Below are positions 32,101-45,557 of a stretch of 64,000 nucleotides of DNA, piece by piece. The DNA comes from Pseudomonadota bacterium (GTDB taxonomy: Bacteria > Pseudomonadota > Gammaproteobacteria > Steroidobacterales > Woeseiaceae), in the NCBI GenBank assembly GCA_022563195.1, contig JADFNV010000003.1:1-64000 (forward strand), given 5' to 3'. The first letter of the stretch is position 1. Every line of letters starts with the position of its first letter. The position numbers were made by a program, and so were the translations under genes. The notes under the pieces are model-generated. The model was not told the DNA's origin and ran no database searches. It saw only the letters and a list, made by a program, of their open reading frames with translations.

Positions 32101-33057
32101 TCAGGCCGGGAAAAAGTCGATCGGTTTCGTTGTCGTGATCGGCTCTACGTCTTTGGCTTCGAAGCGGAACATCTTGATGCGTTGTACGAGCTTGCGTTCG
32201 AGATCCAGGTCACCCAGTTCGCTCGAAACGATCTCGCAAAATGTCACTATTCCGTTTGGTGAAATCGTCAGGCGCAGGACGAGCTTGCCCTCCAGCGTCG
32301 GGTTGATTCGCAGAGCGCGGTTGTAGAGTGCAAAAATCACACCCTTGTTTCTGTCGAATACAAGCTCGATTTCCTCGCGTGAGCGCGAAGCCCTGCCGCT
32401 GGTGCCCGTGCGACGAGCGCCACCGGCCCCTCTGCCAAGGCCGGCAACCGGACTCGAAACCCGGGTCGTCGATCGACCCGCAATGCCGCTACCACCGGTA
32501 TTGCGACTCAGCTTCGCCGTATTGATACCGCCAGATGCCGTACCGACCTTCGATGTGATCATCGAGCGTTCGTTGCGAACGGATTGACCGACCGACGCCG
32601 ACAGGTCGCGATTGTCGGCGATAGACTCCAGTAAGTTCTTGTCGACGAGATTTGCGAGATCGTCGACAAATGGCATTAGCGCTGCTTGCGCTTTTTCCCG
32701 CGCAATCTTTGTCGTATCGACAGGTTCGGGCGGAGGCTCAGGCTCGAGCTCTGGCGTCTCCTCGGCGACCTGCTCCGGCTCAGGCTCGGGCTCAGGCTCA
32801 GATTCCGGTTCAGGCTCGGGTTCCTTTGGCTCTGGCGGCGGCGGAGGCGGTCTCTGCTCAAGCAACAACTGTGCGATGCGCGGTGGAATTTCCACAATCT
32901 CGTTCGGGTCGCGTTCCGGCGTTGGCAGGAACGGCCAGATGATGCCAAGCACTGCAACGACGATGAACACGATACCGAGCAAGCGCCGGAACTTCCTTTC
33001 CTGGCTCGCCCCCGACGTCCAGGGCAGGTCGTATTCTCTGTAGTACGGTAAATCCAC
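32101..33057 (-). CDS. TonB/AgmX-like envelope protein with Pro/Glu-rich linker
   Basis: Protein of 318 residues. A short cytosolic N-terminus is followed by one membrane helix (about 25-45). Next comes a periplasmic linker rich in Pro and Glu (RPPPPPPEPKEPEPEPESE and further EP repeats, about 68-115), a Gly/Ser/Arg-rich stretch, and a C-terminal alpha/beta domain (LYNRALRINPTLEGKLVLRL and later). That domain resembles the AgmX/PglI C-terminal domain more than classic TonB. It is the last gene of a cluster with ExbB, two ExbD and TPR proteins and probably links the inner-membrane motor to the outer envelope. Confidence 0.85.
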   Translation of the reverse strand: MDLPYYREYDLPWTSGASQERKFRRLLGIVFIVVAVLGIIWPFLPTPERDPNEIVEIPPRIAQLLLEQRPPPPPPEPKEPEPEPESEPEPEPEPEQVAEETPELEPEPPPEPVDTTKIAREKAQAALMPFVDDLANLVDKNLLESIADNRDLSASVGQSVRNERSMITSKVGTASGGINTAKLSRNTGGSGIAGRSTTRVSSPVAGLGRGAGGARRTGTSGRASRSREEIELVFDRNKGVIFALYNRALRINPTLEGKLVLRLTISPNGIVTFCEIVSSELGDLDLERKLVQRIKMFRFEAKDVEPITTTKPIDFFPA

Positions 33058-33078
33058 ACGCGACTCCTGGCTTTAGCC

Positions 33079-33606
33079 CTATCTCGCCGCAGCGAGTTCG
33101 TGGAGTTTCTCAGAACTCCGCTGCAAGACTGCCAGTGAGATCTGTCCGTAGTCCGATGCTGTACAGGTCGCCATGACCTTCTTTAACAGCCGATATGGAA
33201 TATCTTTGTCCCCCATGATCGTAACTTCGCGTCCTGCAATGTCGTCCTGAGCTTCCCTGCGCAGCACACGATCGTTCTGCGACTTCAGTGCCTGACGCAG
33301 TGCCGGGATGTCATTGCCCGGTGTCGCCATGACCACATCAACCTTGGCGACTAGCTGACCCTGCACGATGATGTCCGTGTCGCTGATCACAATAACGACC
33401 GACTCGTTCGCTCTTTTCTCGGCGATCGATTCGGGTAACTGCACGTCTTTCGCATTCGGCAGCACTTCGACATTTGACGAATTGACGAGCAGGAAGAATA
33501 CGAGAATCGTGAAAATGTCCATTAACGAAACCAGGTTTAGCGTGGCATCGCGCCGGTGGCGCCGGTGGTGTTTCGCCATGCGTTTTGCGCGCGCTGACTT
33601 GACCAT
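33079..33606 (-). CDS. ExbD/TolR-like protein (with membrane Asp)
   Basis: Inner-membrane proton-channel subunit of 175 residues. One helix (about 24-43, LVSLMDIFTILVFFLL) carries the conserved Asp at D30, the expected proton carrier. A periplasmic ExbD-type domain follows (VVIVISDTDIIVQGQLVAKV and later). The last 70 residues include a segment QNDRVLRREAQDDIAGREVT and YRLLKKVMATCTASDYGQ typical of ExbD. The start is 2 bp after the stop of the other ExbD gene. Confidence 0.9.
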   Translation of the reverse strand: MVKSARAKRMAKHHRRHRRDATLNLVSLMDIFTILVFFLLVNSSNVEVLPNAKDVQLPESIAEKRANESVVIVISDTDIIVQGQLVAKVDVVMATPGNDIPALRQALKSQNDRVLRREAQDDIAGREVTIMGDKDIPYRLLKKVMATCTASDYGQISLAVLQRSSEKLHELAAAR

Positions 33607-33608
33607 TG

Positions 33609-34121
33609 CTATGCACCTCCAGCCGAAATCGGCGCATCGCCAATCGATATTTCCGGGAACAGGTCCGTGCGAACGATTTTTTCTCCCTCGATTGTTTCCG
33701 CGAGGCGCACACGGTCCATTACCTGCACCAGGGTGTCATAGGCAATTTCGGCTTCGAGGAGAATCGCCGCGTTGGTCTTCGTTGGGTAGCCCGCTTTGAT
33801 TTCAGACAATTTCACGCTCAATGCATCGAAATCATAGCCATCTACGCCATTCGGATAGATGCCGAGCAAACCCTGATTGCGGTCGCCAACCTCAATTTGA
33901 TCCTTACGAACGATGATTTCCAGTTGAAACGCAAGATCCTGCTGTTTCACGGGCTCAGTAGAGGAGCCTGGCAGACTCAATTCAATAATCGCCATTTGCG
34001 AGAACACCGCTGTAATCAGCAGAAATGGAACCAGAATCACCATCAGGTTCATGAACGCCGTAATGTTGAGTTCGACCGGGTCGTTATTGCGACGACGGCC
34101 GCTCTGGCGGCTACGGATCAT
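33609..34121 (-). CDS. ExbD/TolR-like protein lacking the membrane Asp
   Basis: Second ExbD-like protein, 170 residues. The single helix begins NITAFMNLMVILVPFLL. The position that is Asp in ExbD, TolR and MotB-like proteins is Asn (N25, codon read directly). The periplasmic part (LDALSVKLSEIKAGYPTKTNAAIL-type segment near residues 95-120) is ExbD-like. It is 2 bp from both the ExbB gene before it and the second ExbD after it. It may form a mixed dimer in which only the other ExbD carries protons; that is inference. Confidence 0.88.
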   Translation of the reverse strand: MIRSRQSGRRRNNDPVELNITAFMNLMVILVPFLLITAVFSQMAIIELSLPGSSTEPVKQQDLAFQLEIIVRKDQIEVGDRNQGLLGIYPNGVDGYDFDALSVKLSEIKAGYPTKTNAAILLEAEIAYDTLVQVMDRVRLAETIEGEKIVRTDLFPEISIGDAPISAGGA

Positions 34122-34123
34122 CC

Positions 34124-34774
34124 TTAAGCCTCTGCAGTATTTAGCTGACGTTCTGTAACGGCGTTGAGAAACTTGACGCTGGCCATCTCGAGGCTGTCTA
34201 CAAGCTGGTTGGTCTTGGTCTGCAACAACGCGTGAGTCAGCAACAACGGAATCGCAACCATGAGCCCGAATGCTGTCGTGTTCATCGCTACCGAAATACT
34301 CGCCGACAACAGATCCGCTTTATCGGCCGGGTTCGCATTCGATACCGCCGTAAATGCCCGGATCAGGCCGATGATGGTGCCAAGCAGTCCCAGCAGCGTT
34401 GCGATGTTTGCCAGCGTTGCTAAATAATGTGTGCGCTTCTCAAGTCTCGGCAGAACCTCCATGAGGCTCTCTTCCATCGCCTTCTCAATGTCGTCACGAC
34501 GCCGGGCAGATTTAACGCGGTACAGGCCGTAAGTCAGAATCGAGCCAATGGCGGCCCTCGACTTGGCAGTGACTGCTGCTGCTTCCTGGAAATTACCGGC
34601 CTTCAGGAACGGCACGATCTTTTTCCACAAAGAACGATTACTCGCACCGGACATCGTCAGGTATATCCAACGCTCGATGGCGATAGCCACCCCGAATGCG
34701 AACACAAACAGGATCGGGTACATGAATGCACCGCCCTGTTGGAAAAAACGCACGATGGCGCCCAAAGTGTCCAT
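34124..34774 (-). CDS. ExbB/TolQ/MotA-type proton channel protein
   Basis: Inner-membrane subunit of 216 residues with three helices (about 16-35, 111-135 and 160-185). The segments YLATLANIATLLGLLGTIIG and SISVAMNTTAFGLMVAIPLL are the conserved channel-forming helices of ExbB and TolQ. The cytosolic loop between helices 1 and 2 is of normal length. It heads the four-gene motor block (ExbB, two ExbD, TonB/AgmX-like), which follows the TPR genes on the same strand. Confidence 0.93.
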   Translation of the reverse strand: MDTLGAIVRFFQQGGAFMYPILFVFAFGVAIAIERWIYLTMSGASNRSLWKKIVPFLKAGNFQEAAAVTAKSRAAIGSILTYGLYRVKSARRRDDIEKAMEESLMEVLPRLEKRTHYLATLANIATLLGLLGTIIGLIRAFTAVSNANPADKADLLSASISVAMNTTAFGLMVAIPLLLTHALLQTKTNQLVDSLEMASVKFLNAVTERQLNTAEA

Positions 34775-34825
34775 TTGATTGCTCCTCTAGTAAATCAAAT
34801 AGTTCGACAATCGAGCAGGCTCGGC

Positions 34826-35251
34826 CTACTCGTCTTTTTCTCCGTACAAGTCGCCGTAATAGCGGACTCGCCGAATAAATTCTTCCCGGTCCAGCGGGGC
34901 TAAGATCTCGTCCAGCAATGTGTTCACAGGTCGTCCCAGCAGGTCGCCCGGATCAGACTTCTGCCAGGGCACAATGTAGAGAACTTTCGGCAATTCCTGG
35001 TTGCCCGTAATCTCCGCACGCCGGAGCTCGAGCCGATCCATCACCTGTCCTGCGGACTGCTCCCTGATCACATCCGTAGCAAGTACTGCGCTCGATACAC
35101 GCGGCTCTAACTCATCGCGCTCGGCTGCAGTATCAACGGCCGGTTCAGGCACGTCCTCGGTCAGCTCCTCCTGAGCAAGCGTCGCAGATGTCGCCAACAA
35201 CATGGCAAGCATGATTCGAGGGCTAAACCTTAAGTTTTTGCGAGTATCCAT
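34826..35251 (-). CDS. Small exported protein of the ExbBD/TPR cluster, unknown function
   Basis: Protein of 141 residues from ATG 35251, 5 bp after the TPR-lipoprotein stop. An N-terminal signal (MLAMLLATSATLAQ after MDTRKNLRFSPRI) precedes an acidic stretch (EELTEDVPEPAVDTAAERDE). Then comes a compact domain with KVLYIVPWQKSDPGDLLGRP and the C-terminal RRVRYYGDLYGEKDE. I do not recognise the family. Its tight packing between the TPR lipoprotein and ExbB suggests it belongs to the same envelope complex. Confidence 0.75.
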   Translation of the reverse strand: MDTRKNLRFSPRIMLAMLLATSATLAQEELTEDVPEPAVDTAAERDELEPRVSSAVLATDVIREQSAGQVMDRLELRRAEITGNQELPKVLYIVPWQKSDPGDLLGRPVNTLLDEILAPLDREEFIRRVRYYGDLYGEKDE

Positions 35252-35256
35252 GTCCT

Positions 35257-35898
35257 TTAGTCCACCGCGTTGGCCGTGCGCTTGTTCGCCATGACACGAC
35301 GGCTCAGATCGGCTATCCACCTCTCCACCTGCTTGTCTTCGTTGACGAGCTCCTGGTAGCGCTGGAAATGCCGCAATGCGGCATCCAGACGTTGTAAATA
35401 CAGTTCATTGAGAACGCCCAGGTTGTAGTGTGCCAAGGCGTAGTCAGGTGAAGCTGTGACGGCCTTCAAATAAGCAGCCTCTGCCTCAATAAATTTGCCA
35501 TTTCTGCGAAGTAGCATGCCCTGCTGATTCAATGCGGGCGGATAATCGGCATCAAGACCCAGAGCTGCATCTATCGCCTCCTCTGCCGCGGTGTCGTTGC
35601 CATTATTCGCGTGGATGATGGCGAGGTTCACGTACACACCCGGGTAGCCCGAATACTGCAGCAGGAATTCCTTGAAACGCAGCTCGGCATCGACAAAATC
35701 ACCGGCCGCCATGATCGCGACTGCTTGCTCGAACATCGTCAGGGCCTGCGCCGGTATATTCTGCGCACTCGCATCTATCGTCTTGTCCTGACCACGGATG
35801 GCAGGTTTCGGCCCCGTCGACGCACAGCCTGCGACCACGAGCACAGCGGCTGGCAGCAGTAAGCGTACTGCTGTACTAGTAAAGCGTCGTAACGACAT
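35257..35898 (-). CDS. TPR-repeat lipoprotein
   Basis: Lipoprotein of 213 residues. The signal ends in a clear lipobox (VVAGC, Cys at 25). At least four TPR units follow, for example AIMAAGDFVDAELRFKEFLL, then LGLDADYPPALNQQGMLLRR, then SPDYALAHYNLGVLNELYLQ and LDAALRHFQRYQELV. The N-terminus overlaps the end of the large TPR gene by 23 nt. TPR lipoproteins of this size occur in Glt-type envelope complexes and near TonB2 systems. It is likely anchored in the outer membrane. Confidence 0.87.
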   Translation of the reverse strand: MSLRRFTSTAVRLLLPAAVLVVAGCASTGPKPAIRGQDKTIDASAQNIPAQALTMFEQAVAIMAAGDFVDAELRFKEFLLQYSGYPGVYVNLAIIHANNGNDTAAEEAIDAALGLDADYPPALNQQGMLLRRNGKFIEAEAAYLKAVTASPDYALAHYNLGVLNELYLQRLDAALRHFQRYQELVNEDKQVERWIADLSRRVMANKRTANAVD

Positions 35899-38692
35899 CT
35901 TCGCTGCGCTCCAGTTTCGCGTACCGCGCCGGCATCAAGCTGGCTAATCTTTCGAAGCTCTTTTTCACCCACTCGTCGTAGACCCCGTCAGGTGCACGAT
36001 TGGCATTCGCCTTGTATAGATCTATGGCCTTCTCCTCGAACGGATATACCTGCTCTTCGAGCAACAAATCATATTGCTCGAGTGTCTCGGCATCGAGATC
36101 GTGCGGGCGCTCCGAGTCCAGCAGGTCGGCACTGAAATGCTCGTAGACTTCACCGAGTCGGAATGTTGCGGCCGTCGTCACCTCAGCGACGCCATATTCA
36201 GCGGCTATTGTATAGACCTCGATAACCTCTTCCATGAGCGCTCGCTTCCGCTTCAGACTGTCGGCCAAAGGCTGGGTCAGTTTGACGACCGCGAATCGCC
36301 GGCGCACGGGTTCGGCAAGTTCTATGGATGCCCTGGCGGCGAGATATCGGGTCCGATCGGATCGTTGTGCGCCCGCGGTTGCGTCAACCTGAACGAGATC
36401 CATGAGTCGCGCCGTTCGGGCATCCCGGTCGCCACTCGCTTCGGCGATTTCGAGCAATCGGAAACGTGCTTCGATCGATTCGGACAATGGATTCGGATAG
36501 CGCGCAATGATGTTCTCGAGGACGCGAAATTCACTGCCGGTCGAGCGGCCTTGCTTATACAGATCGGCTGCTTTCCAAAGGGCCTCGCGGCTCACGGCCT
36601 CGATGCTGGTGCCTGCATCCGCGATGCGCTCGAACTCCGCCGCAGCTTCAATGACCCGGCCCGAGTTGAGGTAGGTAATGGCGAGCTTCTGGGTCACATC
36701 GTCGGCAAAATCACTATCGGGGTAGTCCCTGCGGTAATTCTCGAGTACGCCGGACGCGCGGTCCCAGGCTTGCAAATTTATGAGTGCGGCTGCGGCATCG
36801 TAATCTGCCGTCGCACGAATATCCGAATCGGGTACGACCTGGCCAAGACGTGTGAAGTGGGTAACGGCAATCTCCAAATCACCGGCGTCTCGCGCCAGTT
36901 CGCCCTGCTTGTAAATGGACGAGGCAATTCGGTTCTTGATTGCCTGCCCGGCCTGCTGATCCTCAGCCAGTGTATAGGCACGTAGCTCGTAGTATGACTG
37001 TTCGGCTACGGCGAAATTCTGCAGATCGAATTGTGAGTGTGCTATTACCGTCCATGCAGTGCGTGCCAGCGGTGTCTTAACAGGCGGCAGCTTGCTAACC
37101 ACGATCTGGCCGACCGAAATTGCCAGGTCAAACTGGCCTTGTGTAAACAGATCTTCAGCGATCGTTGTCAAAACGGCGCCTGACTCGGGATGTTCGGGAT
37201 AGCTGTCTGCAAACTTGAGGCCGCTATCGAGGTAGCGGCTGTGCCATTGGGCTTTCCTGCCGCCTTCAAGCGACATTTCATGCTCACGGTAGGCAAGAAT
37301 GCTGGCATAAGCAGCCTCAGCGGATCGCTCGTGAACAGCGTAGTCGTACGCTGTGCGATCGAATTCGATCATCGCGGCTTCGAATTCCTTACTCTCAAAC
37401 AGAGTCTCGGCGAGCAGGAAATTCGTGTTGGCGCTGTCCGGCTCTCCCGGGAAGTAGCCAAGATACTTGCGGTACCAGCGAGCTGCTTCGTGATAATCGC
37501 CAAGCTTTCCATCGCGCTGTGCTTCTGCATGATAGTACTGTGCGAGGTCGTTCAGGTTTGCCTTCAGGTGTGCTGCTACCGCCGTATTTTCCGACGCCTG
37601 ATTGTGCAGCCAGAAACCGCCATCCAAGCCGTAGCGAGCGACAAAATCCTTCTTGCCCTCGAGCACCAGGCTCGGGAATTCGCCCAGCTTGTAGGCTTCG
37701 ATTACCTCAACTTGCAGCAAAGGTGCCTTGGGATGGTAGGGGTCTCGGTCGACAAAGGCTTCGTAGGCTCCCGCCGCATCCACGAAACGCTCCTTCTCCA
37801 GGTAAAGATCGCCTAGATTACGATAAATGATGTAGCTGTAAGCCGGATGGCCGCGTTGATCCAGATAGGCATCAATGCTGGACGCACCATCCATGTACGA
37901 AAAACTGATGCTCAACACGCGAAACGTATCTTCGACGAGCTCCTGGGTTGCACGGCTAAGTTGTTCAAGCCGGTTGTCGCCTTCGACGATTTCGATACCG
38001 CTGATCTTGCGGTCAAGTAATTCGAAAAACGGCACCAGGCTTTTTTCGTGGGCCGCCCGCTTGAATTGTGACCACCCGAGTTTGTATAGCGATTGCTCAT
38101 AGAAGCGAGATTCGTCGCCGTAGCGAACGACGTCCTGGTAGGCGACTTCTGCATCGTCGTAGTTTTTGCGCAAGAACAGCATCTCCCCGCGCCGAAATTG
38201 CACCTCGTCAATGAGCAGTGTCGACGGATATCGGTCCACGAGTTCATTGAGCACGGTAAGCGCATCATCGTTCCTGCCACCAGTTTCGTAGGCCCGACCA
38301 AGCTGGTACAAGACCGTGTCATTGCGTCGATAATCCGGATAAGCCTCGAGCAGTCGCTGATATAACTGCACCGCATTGTTGAAACCCACGTGAGTCATCG
38401 CGTCGATATTCTGAGTAAGTTGCTCGGCCTCGGTCGCATTAAGCTCAAGATCGCCCAGACGGCGCATCGCTTCAGCACGCAATTCAGGGTCCTCGGATAC
38501 AAGATCGAGAAACGCGCGATAATTATCACGGGCGAGATCTGTGCTATGAGCTATAACCCTGCCCGTTCGAATCTCGACTTCTTTCTTTTCGAGGCTCTTG
38601 ATCGTGTCGCGTTTCTTCATCGCGGAGTCGGCTACGGGCGCAAAAAACAGGGACGCACTTAACAGGACAAGCAGAGGTGAGTAACGAGCCAT
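35876..38692 (-). CDS. Large periplasmic TPR protein
   Basis: Exported protein of 938 residues with a signal peptide ending about FAPVADSA (residue 24). Many TPR-like units are spread along it, e.g. LGRAYETGGRNDDALTVLNE, AEVAYQDVVRYGDESRFYEQ and LYKLGWSQFKRAAHEKSLVP. Also seen are VYEAFVDRD-type and LGEVYEHFSADLLDSE segments. It begins 1 nt inside the stop of the 621-residue TPR gene and overlaps the next by 23 nt, so the three are translationally coupled. The size and makeup resemble large TPR proteins of gliding or envelope-motor clusters. The exact role is unknown. Confidence 0.85.
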   Translation of the reverse strand: MARYSPLLVLLSASLFFAPVADSAMKKRDTIKSLEKKEVEIRTGRVIAHSTDLARDNYRAFLDLVSEDPELRAEAMRRLGDLELNATEAEQLTQNIDAMTHVGFNNAVQLYQRLLEAYPDYRRNDTVLYQLGRAYETGGRNDDALTVLNELVDRYPSTLLIDEVQFRRGEMLFLRKNYDDAEVAYQDVVRYGDESRFYEQSLYKLGWSQFKRAAHEKSLVPFFELLDRKISGIEIVEGDNRLEQLSRATQELVEDTFRVLSISFSYMDGASSIDAYLDQRGHPAYSYIIYRNLGDLYLEKERFVDAAGAYEAFVDRDPYHPKAPLLQVEVIEAYKLGEFPSLVLEGKKDFVARYGLDGGFWLHNQASENTAVAAHLKANLNDLAQYYHAEAQRDGKLGDYHEAARWYRKYLGYFPGEPDSANTNFLLAETLFESKEFEAAMIEFDRTAYDYAVHERSAEAAYASILAYREHEMSLEGGRKAQWHSRYLDSGLKFADSYPEHPESGAVLTTIAEDLFTQGQFDLAISVGQIVVSKLPPVKTPLARTAWTVIAHSQFDLQNFAVAEQSYYELRAYTLAEDQQAGQAIKNRIASSIYKQGELARDAGDLEIAVTHFTRLGQVVPDSDIRATADYDAAAALINLQAWDRASGVLENYRRDYPDSDFADDVTQKLAITYLNSGRVIEAAAEFERIADAGTSIEAVSREALWKAADLYKQGRSTGSEFRVLENIIARYPNPLSESIEARFRLLEIAEASGDRDARTARLMDLVQVDATAGAQRSDRTRYLAARASIELAEPVRRRFAVVKLTQPLADSLKRKRALMEEVIEVYTIAAEYGVAEVTTAATFRLGEVYEHFSADLLDSERPHDLDAETLEQYDLLLEEQVYPFEEKAIDLYKANANRAPDGVYDEWVKKSFERLASLMPARYAKLERSEDVVTTLY

Positions 38693-40557
38693 CAGCGTGA
38701 CACTTCCCCAACAGTTGCAGCGAGATCATAAATCGCTGCAAGCGCGAATCGCGCCTGCACAGTGTAGATGTCAAGCCGTTGTTTTTGTGTCTGTAATTCA
38801 CCGACTGCAATGGCTTGCAGAAACATTCGTTGATCAGCCATGGAATCTGCAACGCGATTCATCATGGAAATGATGCGCGGCTCGAGACCGTAGACCCGCT
38901 GACTCAGTTTCGCGAAGTGAATCGGCTCCTTGCGCATCGCATCGTCGATCTCGCGACGCGAACGTTGCGTTTCGACTAACGCCTCGCCGGTCTGCCTGAG
39001 ATTTCGACGAATGCGCCACAGGCGGTCTTTGAAATCGCGCTCCAGGCGCCATTGCAGTACACCTTTTAGAAGGCGAATTTTATCGCGAACCTCAACTGCC
39101 TCAGGAATGTTCGCCGCGAGGGCCGGAGTGTTCGCGAGCTCCGCTAGATCACGCCACATCCTGAATTCCTGCTCCGTCGCGAGCGCCAGCCAGTCGTGGC
39201 TCTGCTCAACGTTGTTGAGCAGCGAATCGAATTCGAGTTTGCGATCAACCATTCCTGCCAGATCAGCCCGAGCTAAAGCATCTTCGACCCGCGGCAGTCG
39301 CTCGAAGTATGCCTCGCGACGGGACTCCAACATGTTGACGTAGACTTCGACGCTTTGCTGCCAGTCATCGAGGTTGTGCTGCAAATAGCTCAGGTCACGA
39401 TAGTTCTTGAGCCCTTCCTGAAACTCATGAGTTGCCAAAAGGTGATACAGGTAGCGCGCCTCGGGTCCGTCAGGCAACTCTTCGAGTCGCCAATACCAGC
39501 CCGTGCTGTCCAAAGGGTCATCGGCCAGGAATCCCTCGAAAAAACCACCTGACTCAATGAAGGCGATTGTGCGATCAATGCGATTGGTTTCCTCGTAAAA
39601 AGCTTCGATGGCGTTGAGATAATGATCGGCTGCCTGGCTGATCGAATCGAGTTTTGCAAGCGCATAGGGAATCGCCAGCATCGCTTCCTGCACGGCCGGA
39701 TCGAGCAAATCGCGACCCCTGAGCTCCATCCACGGCACGAGAGCGCGACGATAATTTTCTATTTCTGCGTCCGCCCAACCCACACCCAGCAGCGCCTTGT
39801 TCGAGAACGGACCCTCCAGCCTCACACGCTGCAGCGGCTCCTTCGCAGCCAGCGGCTGGCCATCCTGGAGCAGTGAGTAACCGAGCGCCAAGTTGGCTTT
39901 GTCACGTAGCGACGTCAGCTCCTCGCTAGTTGGATTCAGCGTGCCTAGTTCGTCGAGAATAGACGCGGCCGCGTCGACATCGCCGCTACGAACCAGTGCT
40001 ACGCCAAGATTGAACTGCGCATATCTCGCCCACTCGGTATTGCCGCTCCACTGTTGCAGTAACGCTATCGCCGCGTTGTACTGAGCACTGTCAATGAAGA
40101 TTTGCGCCTGCAGCATTCTTGCTTCCCGGCGCAAATTTTCGGGTAACATTTCGCTGATGTTGTCCAGCGCGGTTTGCGCTTTGAGGAGATATCCACGTTG
40201 ATGCCAGATCTTGGCAAGGAAAAACCAGGTACGGTCGCGAATATCAGGCGCGACGTTATCGGCCAGCAAACGCTCGAAAATTACTGCCGATTCAAGATGG
40301 TGCCCATAGGACAAATACAGGCCGCCCAATAATAATTCGGCCTGCTCTGAATGTTCATCGAACTGAAACTGCTGTTGAGCTGCAAGTAAATGCACGATCG
40401 CGGGAACGAAATCGTCCTGATAGAAATAGAAAAGAACCTCGCCGAAGTGCGGGCTTTTGACAACGATCGGTTCAGGACCGTTGTCGGCCACCTGGGCCGA
40501 CAACACTGGCGCTGCGAGAAGCATAAACAGTGCGATGACGATGGATTGGCAGCGCAA
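38692..40557 (-). CDS. Exported TPR-type protein
   Basis: Protein of 621 residues with a signal peptide ending about LLAAPVLSAQ (residue 22). Helical repeats include LFYFYQDDFVPAIVHLLAAQ, LLLGGLYLSYGHHLESAVIF and KIWHQRGYLLKAQTALDNI. Further on, QFNLGVALVRSGDVDAAASI is another clear unit. The C-terminal third is a long helical region rich in Arg and Glu (DRLWRIRRNLRQTGEALVET), possibly coiled coil. It is 6 bp after the small coiled-coil gene and shares 1 nt with the 938-residue TPR gene. Confidence 0.82.
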   Translation of the reverse strand: MRCQSIVIALFMLLAAPVLSAQVADNGPEPIVVKSPHFGEVLFYFYQDDFVPAIVHLLAAQQQFQFDEHSEQAELLLGGLYLSYGHHLESAVIFERLLADNVAPDIRDRTWFFLAKIWHQRGYLLKAQTALDNISEMLPENLRREARMLQAQIFIDSAQYNAAIALLQQWSGNTEWARYAQFNLGVALVRSGDVDAAASILDELGTLNPTSEELTSLRDKANLALGYSLLQDGQPLAAKEPLQRVRLEGPFSNKALLGVGWADAEIENYRRALVPWMELRGRDLLDPAVQEAMLAIPYALAKLDSISQAADHYLNAIEAFYEETNRIDRTIAFIESGGFFEGFLADDPLDSTGWYWRLEELPDGPEARYLYHLLATHEFQEGLKNYRDLSYLQHNLDDWQQSVEVYVNMLESRREAYFERLPRVEDALARADLAGMVDRKLEFDSLLNNVEQSHDWLALATEQEFRMWRDLAELANTPALAANIPEAVEVRDKIRLLKGVLQWRLERDFKDRLWRIRRNLRQTGEALVETQRSRREIDDAMRKEPIHFAKLSQRVYGLEPRIISMMNRVADSMADQRMFLQAIAVGELQTQKQRLDIYTVQARFALAAIYDLAATVGEVSR

Positions 40558-40563
40558 CAGCGA

Positions 40564-41163
40564 TCACTCCCATTCCTTGATCACAAATTCCGGTTGTTGC
40601 TTTCTCACCCTGTCGGTAATTTCGAGCTCCAGGTATTTCGCGCCAATTCCCTTGTTGAAAATCATCGTCGCACCACGACGATAGTCACGCGTATGCGGAC
40701 CCTTGCCAGTAAATACAGCGGTCAATTCATGGTCGCCAGTTTTAAGATTTGCCATGTGCACACGTTGCACACCGCCACGCATCAGCGCACCGACTTCGCG
40801 TTCTGTGTACAGGTAGTTGGCAACTTCTTTGCCATCGATCTTGATATTGACCGAATCGAGTTCGAAATACTCGCCGATATCCATTGAGATAAAAAACGCC
40901 ACTTGAGAATTGGCCGGAAAAAGCAAATCTTCTTCGAGCAGGAACAAGTCCCGGTTGAGATCGAGCACTTCCTTCTTCAGATCTTGAACGTTCTCGTCAA
41001 TGGCGCGAAAACGATGACGCAATTCGGCTTCTGCGGCCTCAGACTTAAGTGTCGCTGCCAGCGTGGAATCCGTTTCTGCGCTTAGCGCTTCTTGTGCGCT
41101 TATCACCGCGCTGAACGCGAACAGAAAACATACCCCGAGACTGAAAAATATTCGTCTTGCCAC
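40564..41163 (-). CDS. Exported coiled-coil protein of the ExbBD/TPR cluster
   Basis: Protein of 199 residues with a signal peptide ending about AVISAQ (residue 24). A coiled-coil stretch (DENVQDLKKEVLDLNRDLFL) covers about 55-78. A beta-rich domain follows, with VNIKIDGKEVANYLYTEREV then VHMANLKTGDHELTAVFTGK and a pattern suggesting an immunoglobulin-like fold. The family is not one I can name. It is the first of the packed run towards the TPR and ExbBD genes and follows tlpA by 33 bp. It is probably part of the same complex. Confidence 0.78.
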   Translation of the reverse strand: MARRIFFSLGVCFLFAFSAVISAQEALSAETDSTLAATLKSEAAEAELRHRFRAIDENVQDLKKEVLDLNRDLFLLEEDLLFPANSQVAFFISMDIGEYFELDSVNIKIDGKEVANYLYTEREVGALMRGGVQRVHMANLKTGDHELTAVFTGKGPHTRDYRRGATMIFNKGIGAKYLELEITDRVRKQQPEFVIKEWE

Positions 41164-41196: not shown

Positions 41197-41694
41197 CTAC
41201 TCCCTCAACAACGAGCGAATTTCGTCAAGGTATTGCAGCTCGTAACCAGGCTTGTAACCCTGGTGCACGTAGCGAACCACTCCTTCGCGATCGACCAGCA
41301 CCGTCACCGGCATGGCATCAACCTGGTAGAGTTTGCTCACTTCTTTGCGTGTATCAAACAGCACCGGGAAACTGACACCCAGATCGGTCGCCATGCGTAT
41401 CGCCTTGCTCGAGTCGTCGTCTATATTGACACCGAGCAAGCTGAATCCGACGCGTTGATAGCGCGAATACAGCTCGTCAAGCAGCGGCATTTCCTGCCTG
41501 CACGGCCCGCACCAGGTCGCCCAGAAATTGATCATTACGACGTCACCGCGATATTCGGACAAGCGCAAGTTGACGCCAGTCATACTCTTTAACGCAAAAT
41601 CAGGCGCTGGCTGCCCCATGAGGCCTGACGACGCCAGACCGCTCGCAGCAAACACGCTGAATACAAGACCCATTAAGCAGTTTTTGAGCTTCAT
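41197..41694 (-). CDS. TlpA-type thioredoxin-like protein
   Basis: Exported thiol-disulfide protein of 165 residues with a signal peptide ending about FAASGLASS. The active site is WCGPCR in FWATWCGPCRQEMPLL, with the cis-Pro in AMPVTVLVD. The thioredoxin-like fold of the TlpA/ResA family is complete. It would reduce or supply thiols in the periplasm, often for cytochrome c maturation. The frame upstream of the ATG stays open for 42 codons and contains CLGCH (see the entry for 41695-41973). Confidence 0.9.
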   Translation of the reverse strand: MKLKNCLMGLVFSVFAASGLASSGLMGQPAPDFALKSMTGVNLRLSEYRGDVVMINFWATWCGPCRQEMPLLDELYSRYQRVGFSLLGVNIDDDSSKAIRMATDLGVSFPVLFDTRKEVSKLYQVDAMPVTVLVDREGVVRYVHQGYKPGYELQYLDEIRSLLRE

Positions 41695-41973: not shown

Positions 41974-42996
41974 CTAGGGCTGACGAAGACCGTCGGAATA
42001 GTAAATCCGACCCTGATCGTCGATCACGATGCTCTCATAGTCGGGTAGCGTCGCGATCAGGCGCAGTCCCAGATCGACGCCCATCACAAAAACTGACGTC
42101 GAGAGTGCATCGGTCATCACGGCATCCGGCCCAATGACCGTCGCACTGTGGATACCGCTCGCGGGAGCACCCGTAGCGGGGCTGAGGATGTGGTGGTAGC
42201 GAACGCCGTCTTCCTCAAAGTAGCGTTCATAGTCGCCCGATGTCGAGATCGCCTCGTCATCGAGTGGCACCGAAATTGCCACCTGACCGTCATCACGCGG
42301 ATCTCGAATACCAACGATCCAGGGCTGGCCTCGACGATCTCCGAGTAAGCGCGAATCTCCTCCCGCCGTCACAATTGCGTTGTCGACATCCGACCTGCGC
42401 AAAATGTCGATACCGCGCTCGACGACGTAGCCTTTCGCTATACCACCCAGATTAATACGCACGCCATGGCGTCCGAATCGCACGGTACCCCCAGCCTCGT
42501 TGAGGTGCACGAACCGAAAGTCGATGAGCAGGCGCTCCGCCTCAACAGTCGCCTCGTCGGGTCGCTGTCGATTGCGAAAATCGTAATGCTGGCCGACGCT
42601 CTCGTAGGTGATATCGAAAGCGCCACGAGTCAGGACCGAGATATCCAGCGCACGTCGGATCAACCGATACAATTCCTGTCCCGCGATGACCGGTTCATCC
42701 GCCGCGCGGCGATTGATGTCGGAAATGCGGCTGTCCTCGATATACGTACTCATGAGTCTGTCGATGCGGGCCGCTTCTGCGAACACCTGCTCGACCAGCT
42801 GTGCACCGGTTTCAGGGTCCTCGTGCCATAGCCTGACACTGATCTCCGTCCCCATCATTGGTCGCGCATCACCTACCCACTCTGCTTGCGCAGGCATTGA
42901 AATCGCGAAGATTGCCAACATTGCTAGAGTTAGCTTTGTGCGAGCGTTATGCTGCCATTCTCGACTATTCGACAAGGAGCGCGACAGTGACTTCAT
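41974..42996 (-). CDS. apbE: FAD:protein FMN transferase (ApbE)
   Basis: Exported flavin transferase of about 340 residues that attaches FMN to Thr or Ser of target proteins such as NqrB/C-type subunits. Marks are MMGTEISVRLWH, FDITYESVGQHYDF, the conserved INLGGIAKGYVVERG segment, TAGGDSRLLG, and the C-terminal HILSPATGAPA and the metal-binding DALSTSVFVMG. The signal is MLAIFAISMPAQA preceded by a basic stretch. I chose ATG 42996, with GAGG upstream; that start overlaps the divergent lemA start by 10 nt. A start at 42921 is possible but leaves too short a signal. Confidence 0.9.
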   Translation of the reverse strand: MKSLSRSLSNSREWQHNARTKLTLAMLAIFAISMPAQAEWVGDARPMMGTEISVRLWHEDPETGAQLVEQVFAEAARIDRLMSTYIEDSRISDINRRAADEPVIAGQELYRLIRRALDISVLTRGAFDITYESVGQHYDFRNRQRPDEATVEAERLLIDFRFVHLNEAGGTVRFGRHGVRINLGGIAKGYVVERGIDILRRSDVDNAIVTAGGDSRLLGDRRGQPWIVGIRDPRDDGQVAISVPLDDEAISTSGDYERYFEEDGVRYHHILSPATGAPASGIHSATVIGPDAVMTDALSTSVFVMGVDLGLRLIATLPDYESIVIDDQGRIYYSDGLRQP

Positions 42997-43580
42997 TCCT
43001 GATTTTCCTCGCAATTATCGCCGCAGTCGTGTTCTGGACGATCGGCTTGTACAACGGGCTGGTCAACGGACGCAATCGGGTCAAAAACGCATTTGCTCAA
43101 ATCGATGTACAGCTGACGCGGCGATACGATTTAATTCCAAACCTCGTCGAGGCCGTCAAAGGCTATATGAAGCATGAGCGCGAGACGCTCGAAGCGGTTA
43201 TCAGCGCTCGCAACGCTGCGTCATCGAGCCTGGACGCTGCCAAAGCCGACCCCGCAAATGCCCAATTGATTAAAGAACTCGGCGCATCTGAAGGAACGTT
43301 GACCAATGCACTCGGTCGACTGTTTGCCTTGTCAGAAGCTTATCCTGATCTCAAGGCAAATCAAAACATGATGCAGTTTCAGGAGGAGTTGGCAAGCACC
43401 GAGAACAAGGTCGCATTCTCTCGTCAGGCCTTTAACGATTCAGTTCTCAGCTACAACAACTCGGCCGAAAACTTCCCGAACAATGTGATTGCGGGCATGT
43501 TTAGCTTCGCACTGGCCAGTTTTCTCGAGATCGACACCGAGGAGAAGCGCGAGGCACCCGAGGTTTCGTTTACCTCCTAA
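42987..43580 (+). CDS. lemA: LemA family protein
   Basis: Membrane-anchored protein of 197 residues starting at GTG 42987, with AAGGAGCG as ribosome site. One N-terminal helix (FLIFLAIIAAVVFWTIGLYN) is followed by the helical LemA domain. Signatures are NAFAQIDVQLTRRYDLIPNL, then VKGYMKHERETLEAVISARN and FSRQAFNDSVLSYNN. LemA proteins have no firm biochemical role but commonly precede an M48 protease gene, as here. The next gene starts 30 bp downstream. Confidence 0.93.
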   Translation: MTSFLIFLAIIAAVVFWTIGLYNGLVNGRNRVKNAFAQIDVQLTRRYDLIPNLVEAVKGYMKHERETLEAVISARNAASSSLDAAKADPANAQLIKELGASEGTLTNALGRLFALSEAYPDLKANQNMMQFQEELASTENKVAFSRQAFNDSVLSYNNSAENFPNNVIAGMFSFALASFLEIDTEEKREAPEVSFTS

Positions 43581-43610
43581 TCAGATCCGGATAGGCCAAG
43601 CGGAGCAACA

Positions 43611-45557
43611 TTGAATTTCTTTGACGCTCAGGACCGAGCTCGCCGATCAACGCGGTGGCTCGTCTTCATCTATCTGCTCGCTACAGTCCTGATCGTGCTC
43701 GGTGTGACGCTGGTCGTCGGCCTTACCTTGTTTAACGTCACCGACACGGGCTACCCGGTCACGGTTGGCTCATTCCTGGCGCAGCAAGCGCCGATCCTGC
43801 TCGGCACCGCCACCATTACGGCATTGTTCATTGGCGGCGCCACGCTCGTAAAAACCTCGATATTGTCGTCCGGCGGTGGCCGCGTTGCACAGGATCTCGG
43901 TGGAACTCTAATCGCCAGCGACGTGCAGGATCCACTGCGCCGGCGACTGAGAAATGTCGTCGAGGAAATGGCGATTGCGTCCGGCGTCCCGGTACCCGAG
44001 ATCTATGTCCTCGAACAAGAGAACGGCATCAACGCGTTTGCAGCGGGTTTCGCACCCGCGGACGCCGCCATCGCCGTCACACGCGGCACGCTCGAACTCC
44101 TGGACCGCGATGAATTGCAGGGAGTCATCGCGCATGAGTTCAGCCACATCCTCAACGGTGACATGCGCCTGAACATTCGCCTGATGGGCGTGCTGTTCGG
44201 CATCATGGTGATCGGGCTTATCGGGCGCATGGTATTGCGTGGCGGGCGTTACGGTGCGTTCATCGGCCGCGGCCGCGATCGCGGCGCGCCCGTTGTGCTG
44301 ATCATTGGCCTTGGATTGGCTGTGCTCGGCGGTATCGGCGTGTTCTTTGCGCGCGTGATCAAGGCCCGTGTATCGCGTCAGCGCGAGTACCTGGCCGACG
44401 CATCGGCCGTGCAATTCACGCGACAGACCACGGGGCTCGCGAATGCGCTCAAGAAAATCGGCGGTTACCCGACAGGGTCTCACCTGCAGGCTGCGGACCC
44501 CGAGGAAGTCAGTCACATGTTGTTCGGCACCGGCGCCAGGTTCAGTAGTCTGTTCGCGACACATCCGCCGTTAACTGAGCGCATTCAGGCGCTGGAACCC
44601 TCGTTCAAGGATACTGACTACCCAAGCATCGATATTCGCGAGAGCAAGCTCGCGAGTGAATCTGCAGAAGCGGAGCAGCGAATTGCCGGCGTCGCGGCTG
44701 CGTTCGCCGGTGTGGCAACCGGCTTGTCGCCAGAGGCTGTAGTTGCAAGTGTCGGCCAACCGGGGCAGCAACACATCGAATTTGCCGCAACGATACGGCG
44801 CTCAATCCCTGAGATTCTCTACAACGCCGCGCATTCATCCGAACGCGCCTATCTGCTGTCGATCGCCTTGATTCTCGATCGCAGCGGTGACGTCCTCGGC
44901 CAGCAACTCACGCTGGCACATGAGCGCCTCGGCGAGCAGCGTGCCCGACTTGTTGAGCAGTATTACGACGAACTGGCCAAGATCGGTGCCGTGTACCGCC
45001 TGCCGTTGCTCGAGATCGCGTTTCCCGCGTTGAGACGACGTCCGCCTGTGCAACTCGGTGGGCTTGTCGAACTTGCCGGTCAGATGATCGACGTCGACGG
45101 CAACATCGATCTGTATGAGTATTGTTTTTATCGCATGCTTGTCAGTGCTATCGGGCAGGCCATCGATCCGTCACGCGCTAAAAAACGTAAGCGTGCCAAA
45201 CGCAAACCCGTGCGTGATGCCGCTGTTAATCTATTGCGCATCGTCGCACATCATGGCCACCGGGAGGACAGGGCCGGAGAGTCGGCGTTTCGAGCCGGTC
45301 TTACAGTTTATGGCGACTGGGCAAGCGATTTTGCATACGGACCGAACGGCGAGTTCTCGGCTGCAGCGCTCGACGAAAGCCTCGATATGCTCGTTGCCCT
45401 GAATGGCGACGGCCGACAGATGTTGCTCAGGGCCATCAGCGCTGTCGTCATGTTCGATGGCAAGCTAACGGCGTCCGAAGGTGAACTGATGCGAGCCGTG
45501 TGCGCCACTCTCGAGTGCCCGCTGCCGCCCATCCTGGCGCAGACATCGCATGCCTGA
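43611..45557 (+). CDS. M48 family metalloprotease with long C-terminal extension
   Basis: Membrane protease of 648 residues from a TTG at 43611, preceded by GGAG; the N-terminal NFFDAQDRARR is typical, which supports this start. Membrane helices lie at about 15-40 and 58-80. The zinc motif HEFSH is at 175-179, with the third ligand in the EYLADASAV segment. HtpX-like proteases have about 290 residues; here a further 330 residues follow. Near the C-terminus VVMFDGKLTASEGELMRAV has a TerB-like pattern. It is paired with lemA. Confidence 0.9.
   Translation: MNFFDAQDRARRSTRWLVFIYLLATVLIVLGVTLVVGLTLFNVTDTGYPVTVGSFLAQQAPILLGTATITALFIGGATLVKTSILSSGGGRVAQDLGGTLIASDVQDPLRRRLRNVVEEMAIASGVPVPEIYVLEQENGINAFAAGFAPADAAIAVTRGTLELLDRDELQGVIAHEFSHILNGDMRLNIRLMGVLFGIMVIGLIGRMVLRGGRYGAFIGRGRDRGAPVVLIIGLGLAVLGGIGVFFARVIKARVSRQREYLADASAVQFTRQTTGLANALKKIGGYPTGSHLQAADPEEVSHMLFGTGARFSSLFATHPPLTERIQALEPSFKDTDYPSIDIRESKLASESAEAEQRIAGVAAAFAGVATGLSPEAVVASVGQPGQQHIEFAATIRRSIPEILYNAAHSSERAYLLSIALILDRSGDVLGQQLTLAHERLGEQRARLVEQYYDELAKIGAVYRLPLLEIAFPALRRRPPVQLGGLVELAGQMIDVDGNIDLYEYCFYRMLVSAIGQAIDPSRAKKRKRAKRKPVRDAAVNLLRIVAHHGHREDRAGESAFRAGLTVYGDWASDFAYGPNGEFSAAALDESLDMLVALNGDGRQMLLRAISAVVMFDGKLTASEGELMRAVCATLECPLPPILAQTSHA

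Follow-up and report, generated by a model that had tools for sequence, protein, structure and literature searches.

What does a nine-gene cluster built like the core of the myxobacterial gliding motor do in a gammaproteobacterium of the family Woeseiaceae? The cluster occupies positions 32101-41163 of the 64,000-nucleotide stretch analysed here (hereafter the window; GenBank assembly GCA_022563195.1, contig JADFNV010000003.1, positions 1 to 64,000), and an earlier reading of this DNA from sequence alone had proposed a proton-driven trans-envelope machine of unknown task. Our preferred reading, to which we give a probability of roughly 45%, is that the cluster is a gammaproteobacterial AglRQS-Glt core, a force transducer that moves or displays surface proteins by acting on barrels in the outer membrane. 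The observations behind it, all made at the level of sequence, are the parts of the cluster and their conserved order, an Asn/Asp asymmetry between its two ExbD-type subunits, and the co-occurrence and joint absence of the core and a set of barrel, CxxCH and flavin-linked genes, hereafter the module.

The nine genes follow one another on the minus strand from 41163 down to 32101 with intergenic gaps of -23 to 51 bp, and the identities and tight spacing given in the sequence-only reading hold. TPR denotes tetratricopeptide repeats and aa amino acids:

40564-41163, minus strand: small exported protein 1 ('first', P0009, 199 aa), with a signal peptide and no Pfam or NCBIfam family above cut-off
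38692-40557, minus strand: candidate GltC-type exported TPR protein (P0008, 621 aa, TTG start), all TPR matches below Pfam cut-offs
35876-38692, minus strand: candidate GltD-type large exported TPR protein (P0007, 938 aa), TPR_6 85.7 bits (cut-off 26.3)
35257-35898, minus strand: GltE-type TPR lipoprotein (P0006, 213 aa), TPR_16 47.0 bits (cut-off 32.7), with the lipobox VVAGC in its sequence
34826-35251, minus strand: small exported protein 2 ('sml', P0005, 141 aa from its ATG), the cluster marker, no family above cut-off
34124-34774, minus strand: ExbB/TolQ/AglR-type pore subunit (P0004, 216 aa), PF01618 MotA_ExbB 104.9 bits (cut-off 22.9)
33609-34121, minus strand: ExbD-type subunit 1 (P0003, 170 aa), PF02472 57.7 bits (cut-off 25.4), Asn25 at the proton-site position
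33079-33606, minus strand: ExbD-type subunit 2 (P0002, 175 aa), PF02472 61.8 bits (cut-off 25.4), Asp30 at the proton-site position
32101-33057, minus strand: TonB/GltG-type transducer (P0001, 318 aa), with one apparent transmembrane helix, an EP-rich linker and an AgmX/PglI C-terminal domain

This layout matches the core complex described by Luciano et al. in 2011, in which aglR, Q and S and gltC, D, E and G form one region in Gammaproteobacteria, a betaproteobacterium, Geobacter and Fibrobacter and whose function was left open (PMC3169522), and the cluster itself is therefore already known, as the sequence-only reading had allowed in calling it a possible uncharacterised conserved cluster already seen in genomes. 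Comparison with the main text of that paper revealed no difference in gene set: one ExbB-type, two ExbD-type, and GltG-, GltE-, GltD- and GltC-type genes lie in one region together with extra exported genes. The window holds one AglR-type, two ExbD-type, a GltG-type and a GltE-type gene, while P0008 and P0007 are best read as GltC- and GltD-type from their order, size and TPR content, the published GltC and GltD having 673 and 1191 aa (PMC3169522). The published region also carries an additional gene that has no homologues in Myxococcales and Bdellovibrionales (PMC3169522); the cluster, a single region of conserved order, has two exported genes to which the family models scanned assign no known family. 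The cluster thus belongs to a known but functionally unassigned kind, from which a putative motor with one Asp and the co-occurring module set it apart as a variant. What the Glt core does where gliding is not known was still an open point in 2011, and no answer was found in the literature searched.

The closest studied machines are the Agl-Glt gliding and Agl-Nfs spore-coat systems of Myxococcus xanthus, which Wartel et al. showed in 2013 to be surface transporters driven by the proton-motive force, proposing that the core serves as a basal machine for transport (PMC3858216). The window cluster shares with them an AglR/Q/S-type motor presumably driven by the proton-motive force, a TonB-like GltG-type protein, TPR proteins and, in related genomes, outer-membrane barrels; it differs from M. 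xanthus in that its 318-aa GltG-type protein has no FHA domain and in that only one of its ExbD-type proteins has the Asp described for both AglQ and AglS (PMC9389320). A machine that fits the published core complex (PMC3169522) is what the sequence-only reading had anticipated in its comparison with AglRQS and Glt-type proteins. A link to gliding found no support. If the core and unlinked barrels moved the cell over surfaces as in Myxococcus, one would expect the same core as AglRQS-Glt and the barrel family OMP_myx_plus in the same genomes, and both are indeed seen. However, Luciano et al. argued that the core alone is unlikely to power motility (PMC3169522), metagenome-assembled genomes of Woeseiaceae have been reported with flagellar and type IV pilus genes (PMC12175321), and the gliding equivalog models fall far below their cut-offs (GltG 32.1 bits against 650, GltE 22.3 against 225, GltJ 27.2 against 450), these three being the only Glt models matched among the ten window proteins scanned, and GltJ the only one of them from group A of the M. 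xanthus machinery (gltA, B, F, H, I, J and K). We therefore regard gliding as quite improbable. Of the profiles that the sequence-only reading had proposed for searching, the AgmX/PglI C-terminal domain was recovered in P0001 (NF033768, 57.9 bits, cut-off 40).

The same scans bear on the two better known systems with which the cluster shares its motor families and a TonB-like C-terminal domain, TonB-ExbB-ExbD and TolA-TolQ-TolR; it differs from both in having two ExbD-type genes and five further exported proteins. A dedicated TonB-type importer of iron, haem or some other nutrient, with additional components in the periplasm, would account for the ExbB/ExbD/TonB-like core, and a few of the DUF3570/ApbE clusters discussed below hold an iron transporter gene, 25 of them with VIT1 (PMC8238504). 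The scores speak against it: exbB reaches 38.9 bits (cut-off 206.2), ExbD 25.0 (123.45) and TonB 27.7 (265), and for P0001 Pfam TonB_C (PF03544) stays at 20.1 against 24.6, the broad TonB-family model TIGR01352 being just passed (29 against 27.1). None of the ten neighbour proteins scanned, the extent of the receptor search, matched a TonB-dependent receptor model, and import appears decidedly unlikely. The window also differs from the Vibrio TonB2/TtpC system, with its one ExbD and TtpC, by its two ExbDs and by a single MotA_ExbB match among the ten window proteins scanned, a scan that included no TtpC model. More improbable still is a Tol-Pal-like system for outer-membrane constriction or integrity. 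TolQ gives the best score for the ExbB-type protein (65.4 bits), and P0007 matches the CpoB/YbgF TPR model (ybgF, 114.7 bits, cut-off 90.1); against this, the cut-offs of TolQ (221) and TolR (24.6 against 127.3) are not reached, none of the ten neighbour proteins matched TolB or Pal, and the window's genome has four other ExbB/TolQ-type matches.

The cluster is not a chance array, since its gene set and order recur across loci. For the order comparison, loci were fetched by matches to the sml protein in three sets, L036-L092 (57 loci), L093-L115 (23) and L116-L175 (60, drawn class-wide); L047 and L116 are one and the same locus, counted in both sets. At least seven of the nine core genes were recognised in 48/57, 19/23 and 50/60 loci, respectively, and among these the order was identical in 48, 17 and 49, so that the joint conservation on which the sequence-only reading depended is borne out. 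All nine genes were present and in order in 38/57, 10/23 and 35/60, many incomplete loci being cut by contig ends or having one unrecognised gene. Three loci were flagged as out of order: L097 and L131 look like over-extended starts of open reading frames, and in L099 an additional TPR gene lies past the TonB gene. In L164 and L172 sml alone was recognised. Small exported protein 1 was recognised in 117/141 loci including the window. Across 274 genomes of Gammaproteobacteria the sml family, a good marker for the core, was found in 58 with a single-sequence query and in 61 with an alignment query; G006 (E 5.1e-4) and G061 (a partial match, 4.9e-7) were dropped from the latter, giving 59 core-positive genomes, and as neither carries a module marker the module counts are unaffected.

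The first feature that sets this core apart, overlooked in the sequence-only reading, lies in the motor. At the proton-site position ExbD1 has Asn in 108 of 124 sequences including the window (107 of the 123 other loci) and Asp in the remaining 16; by set, Asn is present in 52/52 (L036-L092), 6/21 (L093-L115) and 49/50 (L116-L175) in addition to the window, two of the 124 sequences being identical (the shared locus L047/L116). At the same position ExbD2 has Asp in all 120 sequences including the window. In a tree that covers 70 loci and omits ExbD1, parsimony requires two changes of the Asn/Asp state, with Asn at the midpoint root, a rooting that is arbitrary. The pattern of Asn in ExbD1 and Asp in ExbD2 suggests that the gammaproteobacterial core motor may be an obligate ExbD heterodimer with one proton site. 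The pore subunit is conserved throughout, with Thr at positions 133 and 167 (window numbering) in 127/127 and 126/127 sequences including the window, the odd one being a gap. This pair presumably corresponds to Thr148 and Thr181 of Escherichia coli ExbB. Both of those residues have been named as essential (PMC12905483).

A natural Asn in one ExbD touches two debates. AglQ and AglS have both been described with a conserved Asp, and whether they form a heterodimer or homodimers is an open question (PMC9389320) on which the asymmetry bears directly. Current models of ExbBD/TolQR-type motors have two Asp residues that swap protonation (PMC12905483), and the Asn challenges them, since with a single protonatable Asp in each dimer the motor would need another way of stepping. 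In the literature searched no description of the ExbD1 Asn in the core complex was found, and the main text of PMC3169522, in which the words 'aspart' and 'asparagine' are absent, does not discuss it under those words.

The second distinguishing feature is the module, to which the window contributes two genes that prolong the same-strand series upstream of the core and that the sequence-only reading had likewise passed over, along with the module itself:

41197-41694, minus strand: TlpA/ResA-type periplasmic thioredoxin (P0010), PF00578 106.1 bits (cut-off 26), 33 bp upstream of the core
41974-43014, minus strand: ApbE (FAD:protein FMN transferase), PF02424 260.8 bits (cut-off 25.6), 279 bp from the TlpA gene

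TlpA adjoins the core in 42 of the 43 loci of L036-L092 with at least 700 bp of upstream sequence. Many cores are preceded by a larger set: an HZS_alpha/CxxCH protein (about 900 aa), a second, small CxxCH protein, a protein joining an SH3 domain and a barrel, an OMP_myx_plus barrel (135.3 bits in L151, cut-off 60), TlpA, the domain-of-unknown-function (DUF) proteins DUF4266 and DUF3570, and sometimes ApbE. Often a second set lies nearby, comprising a CxxCH protein of 410 aa, a LamG/CxxCH protein (about 850 aa) and a third protein, of about 540 aa, that has, as read by eye, a twin-arginine translocation (Tat)-like N-terminus and no Pfam or NCBIfam family. Family models were scanned against one or two members of each module family. 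Clusters of DUF3570, DUF4266, thioredoxin and ApbE have been described as flavinylation systems of uncertain function (PMC8238504); here they adjoin the core in many relatives, with all four in L180, L181, L184 and L187, for example, while the window has TlpA and ApbE only, and DUF3570 was not found in its own genome (G000, 82.65% complete).

Among 20 stretches picked for showing module genes, 14 had an OMP_myx_plus-type barrel on the strand of the core and at most 6 kb upstream of it; in five of the other six the module ran on the other strand or lay past the LamG set, and L193 had none in the stretch. Class-wide, 39 genomes had both, and in 26 of them an OMP_myx_plus gene was no more than 25 kb from a core, counting one core position per genome; in the rest it was elsewhere or on another contig, contig breaks hiding some. 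Module genes and core co-occur across genomes. Against a base rate of 59/274, genomes with the HZS_alpha/CxxCH protein (E of at most 1e-30) were core-positive in 35/38 cases, those with OMP_myx_plus over its cut-off in 39/41 and those with the Tat-type protein in 31/34; for the control family KatG the figure was 13/84. The OMP_myx_plus counts include only matches over the curated cut-off (41/274 here and 60/81 in the window's family), any match giving 81 and 62. OMP_myx_plus had no match in 14 control genomes, which leaves no outside positive control for that family.

The window's own family was scanned for OMP_myx_plus, the Tat-type protein and DUF3570, with the HZS_alpha protein left out. 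The core was found in 61 of 81 genomes, OMP_myx_plus over its cut-off in 60 and the Tat-type protein in 58. Sixty of the 61 core-positive genomes had the barrel or the Tat-type protein, and 53 had both; the sole exception was the window's own assembly, which is 82.65% complete. Only three of the 20 core-negative genomes had either marker, and all three are incomplete or fragmented (G291, 67%; G316, 72%; G352, 660 contigs). Core and module are nonetheless unlinked in this family; in G279, whose genome is one contig, 0.59 Mb separates them. Genus g225 has nine small genomes that lack both, as do G284, G303, G306 and G308, and genome size alone does not explain the joint absence because these last four measure 2.5-3.6 Mb. 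Genes present or absent together with the core even when unlinked are candidates for its cargo and for its partners in the outer membrane. The literature searched (preprints lay outside the search and subscription papers were sparse) showed no link of the core to a CxxCH/flavin module. The words 'redox' and 'cytochrome' are absent from the main text of PMC3169522, which does not discuss a redox/barrel module under those words, and the main text of PMC8238504 contains none of 'ExbB', 'gliding', 'AglR' or 'LamG'.

From these observations we infer an envelope machine that would be powered by the proton-motive force and work like the Agl-Glt/Nfs surface transporters of Myxococcus. An ExbB pentamer would surround a heterodimer of the two ExbD-type proteins, one alone bearing the proton-binding Asp, and proton flow would cause the TonB/GltG-type protein to reach through the cell wall, with the TPR proteins and both small exported proteins as the periplasmic relay. 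The outer-membrane end would be the pair of small beta-barrels (the SH3-barrel protein and OMP_myx_plus), encoded beside the core in many related genomes and away from it in the window's family. Mignot and Nollmann proposed that GltA/B barrels, through TonB boxes, contact GltG (PMC5349195), and the barrel pair may take the part of GltA/B in contacting the GltG-type protein; OMP_myx_plus barrels, present in 60/81 family genomes, were identified by family model. The load would be exported CxxCH/LamG/flavin-linked proteins, the CxxCH proteins possibly binding haem; TlpA and ApbE would assist in their maturation, and the machine would move or display them at the cell surface.

Several points weigh against this picture. 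The module is not needed for every core, since 18 of the 59 core-positive genomes lack all three module markers, and the core thus exists without it, at least in other subtypes. The co-occurrence counts treat genomes as independent though related ones share history, and co-occurrence says nothing of contact or of the direction of transport. In the proteins scanned, cytochrome domains were weak or below cut-off, so that haem binding rests on the CxxCH motifs; the 410-aa protein was considered as a planctomycete-type cytochrome and rejected, as PSD2 and PSCyt3 were below cut-off. DUF3570 is not specific to the core: in the family, 59 of the 61 genomes with the core have it, but so do 5 of the 20 without, among them G284 and G308. 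The window has no barrel or CxxCH gene, and none was found in its own genome (82.65% complete). Finally, the Glt correspondence is drawn from family models, gene order, protein size and TPR content.

A second core subtype carries a different putative load. In a concatenated tree (FastTree), L144, L149, L153, L158, L163, L165 and L170 form one clade with TonB-type proteins of 453-477 aa, longer than in most loci, although L137 (435 aa) and L155 (454 aa) sit elsewhere in the tree. In five of the seven (L153, L158, L163, L165 and L170) the gene directly after the core encodes a protein with DUF11 domains above the Pfam cut-off; L144 stops 369 bp beyond the core, and in L149 a different gene takes that place. 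The largest, at 5022 aa, is in L196 (1-20000), a longer stretch of L153's locus. In L197 and L198, where giant DUF11 proteins likewise follow the core, the gene that comes next codes for a protein of about 1,700 aa whose OmpA domain scores 71.5 and 84.6 bits (cut-off 27.2). G167, a genome of the window's genus, has both core subtypes and the module on three contigs. No description of a second core subtype preceding giant DUF11 proteins was found in the literature searched.

In the proposed mechanism the DUF11 giants would be the load of this second subtype. Their position directly after the core also fits a secretion machine, in which a core driven by the proton-motive force would push the LamG/CxxCH proteins or DUF11 giants across the outer membrane and not along the surface, and the ExbBD/TonB-dependent secretion of PopC in Myxococcus offers a precedent (PMC6434023). 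Yet, according to a published study (PMC3858216), Agl-Nfs and Agl-Glt do not export their polymers, and the barrels found are short (about 210-290 aa), which by size alone argues against a wide pore; we consider secretion unlikely. Transport or display at the surface by the AglRQS-Glt core is the reading we retain, and it can be extended into a bolder one that we hold to be rather unlikely: the ancestral task of the gliding-motor core may have been to drive a surface redox system and not motility. A motor built on an ExbD heterodimer with a single proton site would then pull the barrel pair and so mount or move flavin- and haem-bearing surface proteins; other subtypes would have swapped this cargo for DUF11 giants, and myxobacteria later for adhesins and spore-coat polymer.

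The two small exported proteins were considered as known gliding parts and rejected, as neither had an NCBIfam or Pfam match above cut-off. For sml the conserved motif lies around GNxELPKVLYIVPW...P...DRxxFxR, and its AlphaFold model is mostly disordered (pLDDT, the predicted local distance difference test, 60.7). Its ATG stands right behind the stop codon of the lipoprotein gene, and a longer open reading frame with an upstream start is also present. The N-terminal stretch is long, variable and disordered in the window (141 aa) and near relatives, and many other loci encode only about 90-120 aa. That sml is the counterpart of GltF is a guess from its position after the gltE-type gene, its small size, export and disorder, without sequence support. 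The model of small exported protein 1 (AlphaFold, pLDDT 84) has a long helix at residues 27-81 and an immunoglobulin/prealbumin-like beta sandwich at 86-198. Foldseek returned no informative match for it (best E 2.7e-3, TM score 0.30), and VIA-align gave a best Z of 9.3 to the PepT2 extracellular domain with many transthyretin matches at about 8; the matches therefore point to a common beta-sandwich only.

The surroundings of the core hold a few further features. Divergent from and upstream of ApbE, the window encodes LemA (PF04011, 190.4 bits) and an M48 peptidase (PF01435, 111.2 bits) at 42858-45557, and the M48 peptidase gene (cluster c10) is found upstream again in L098, L099, L102 and L116. 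A gene of the phosphoribulokinase/uridine kinase family (cluster c13; PF00485, 232.5 bits in L145) lies just upstream of the core in L137, L145, L155, L156 and L160. In single loci a core gene is split into two frames, perhaps by sequencing error or by decay, the GltD-type gene in L118 and the GltC-type gene in L151.

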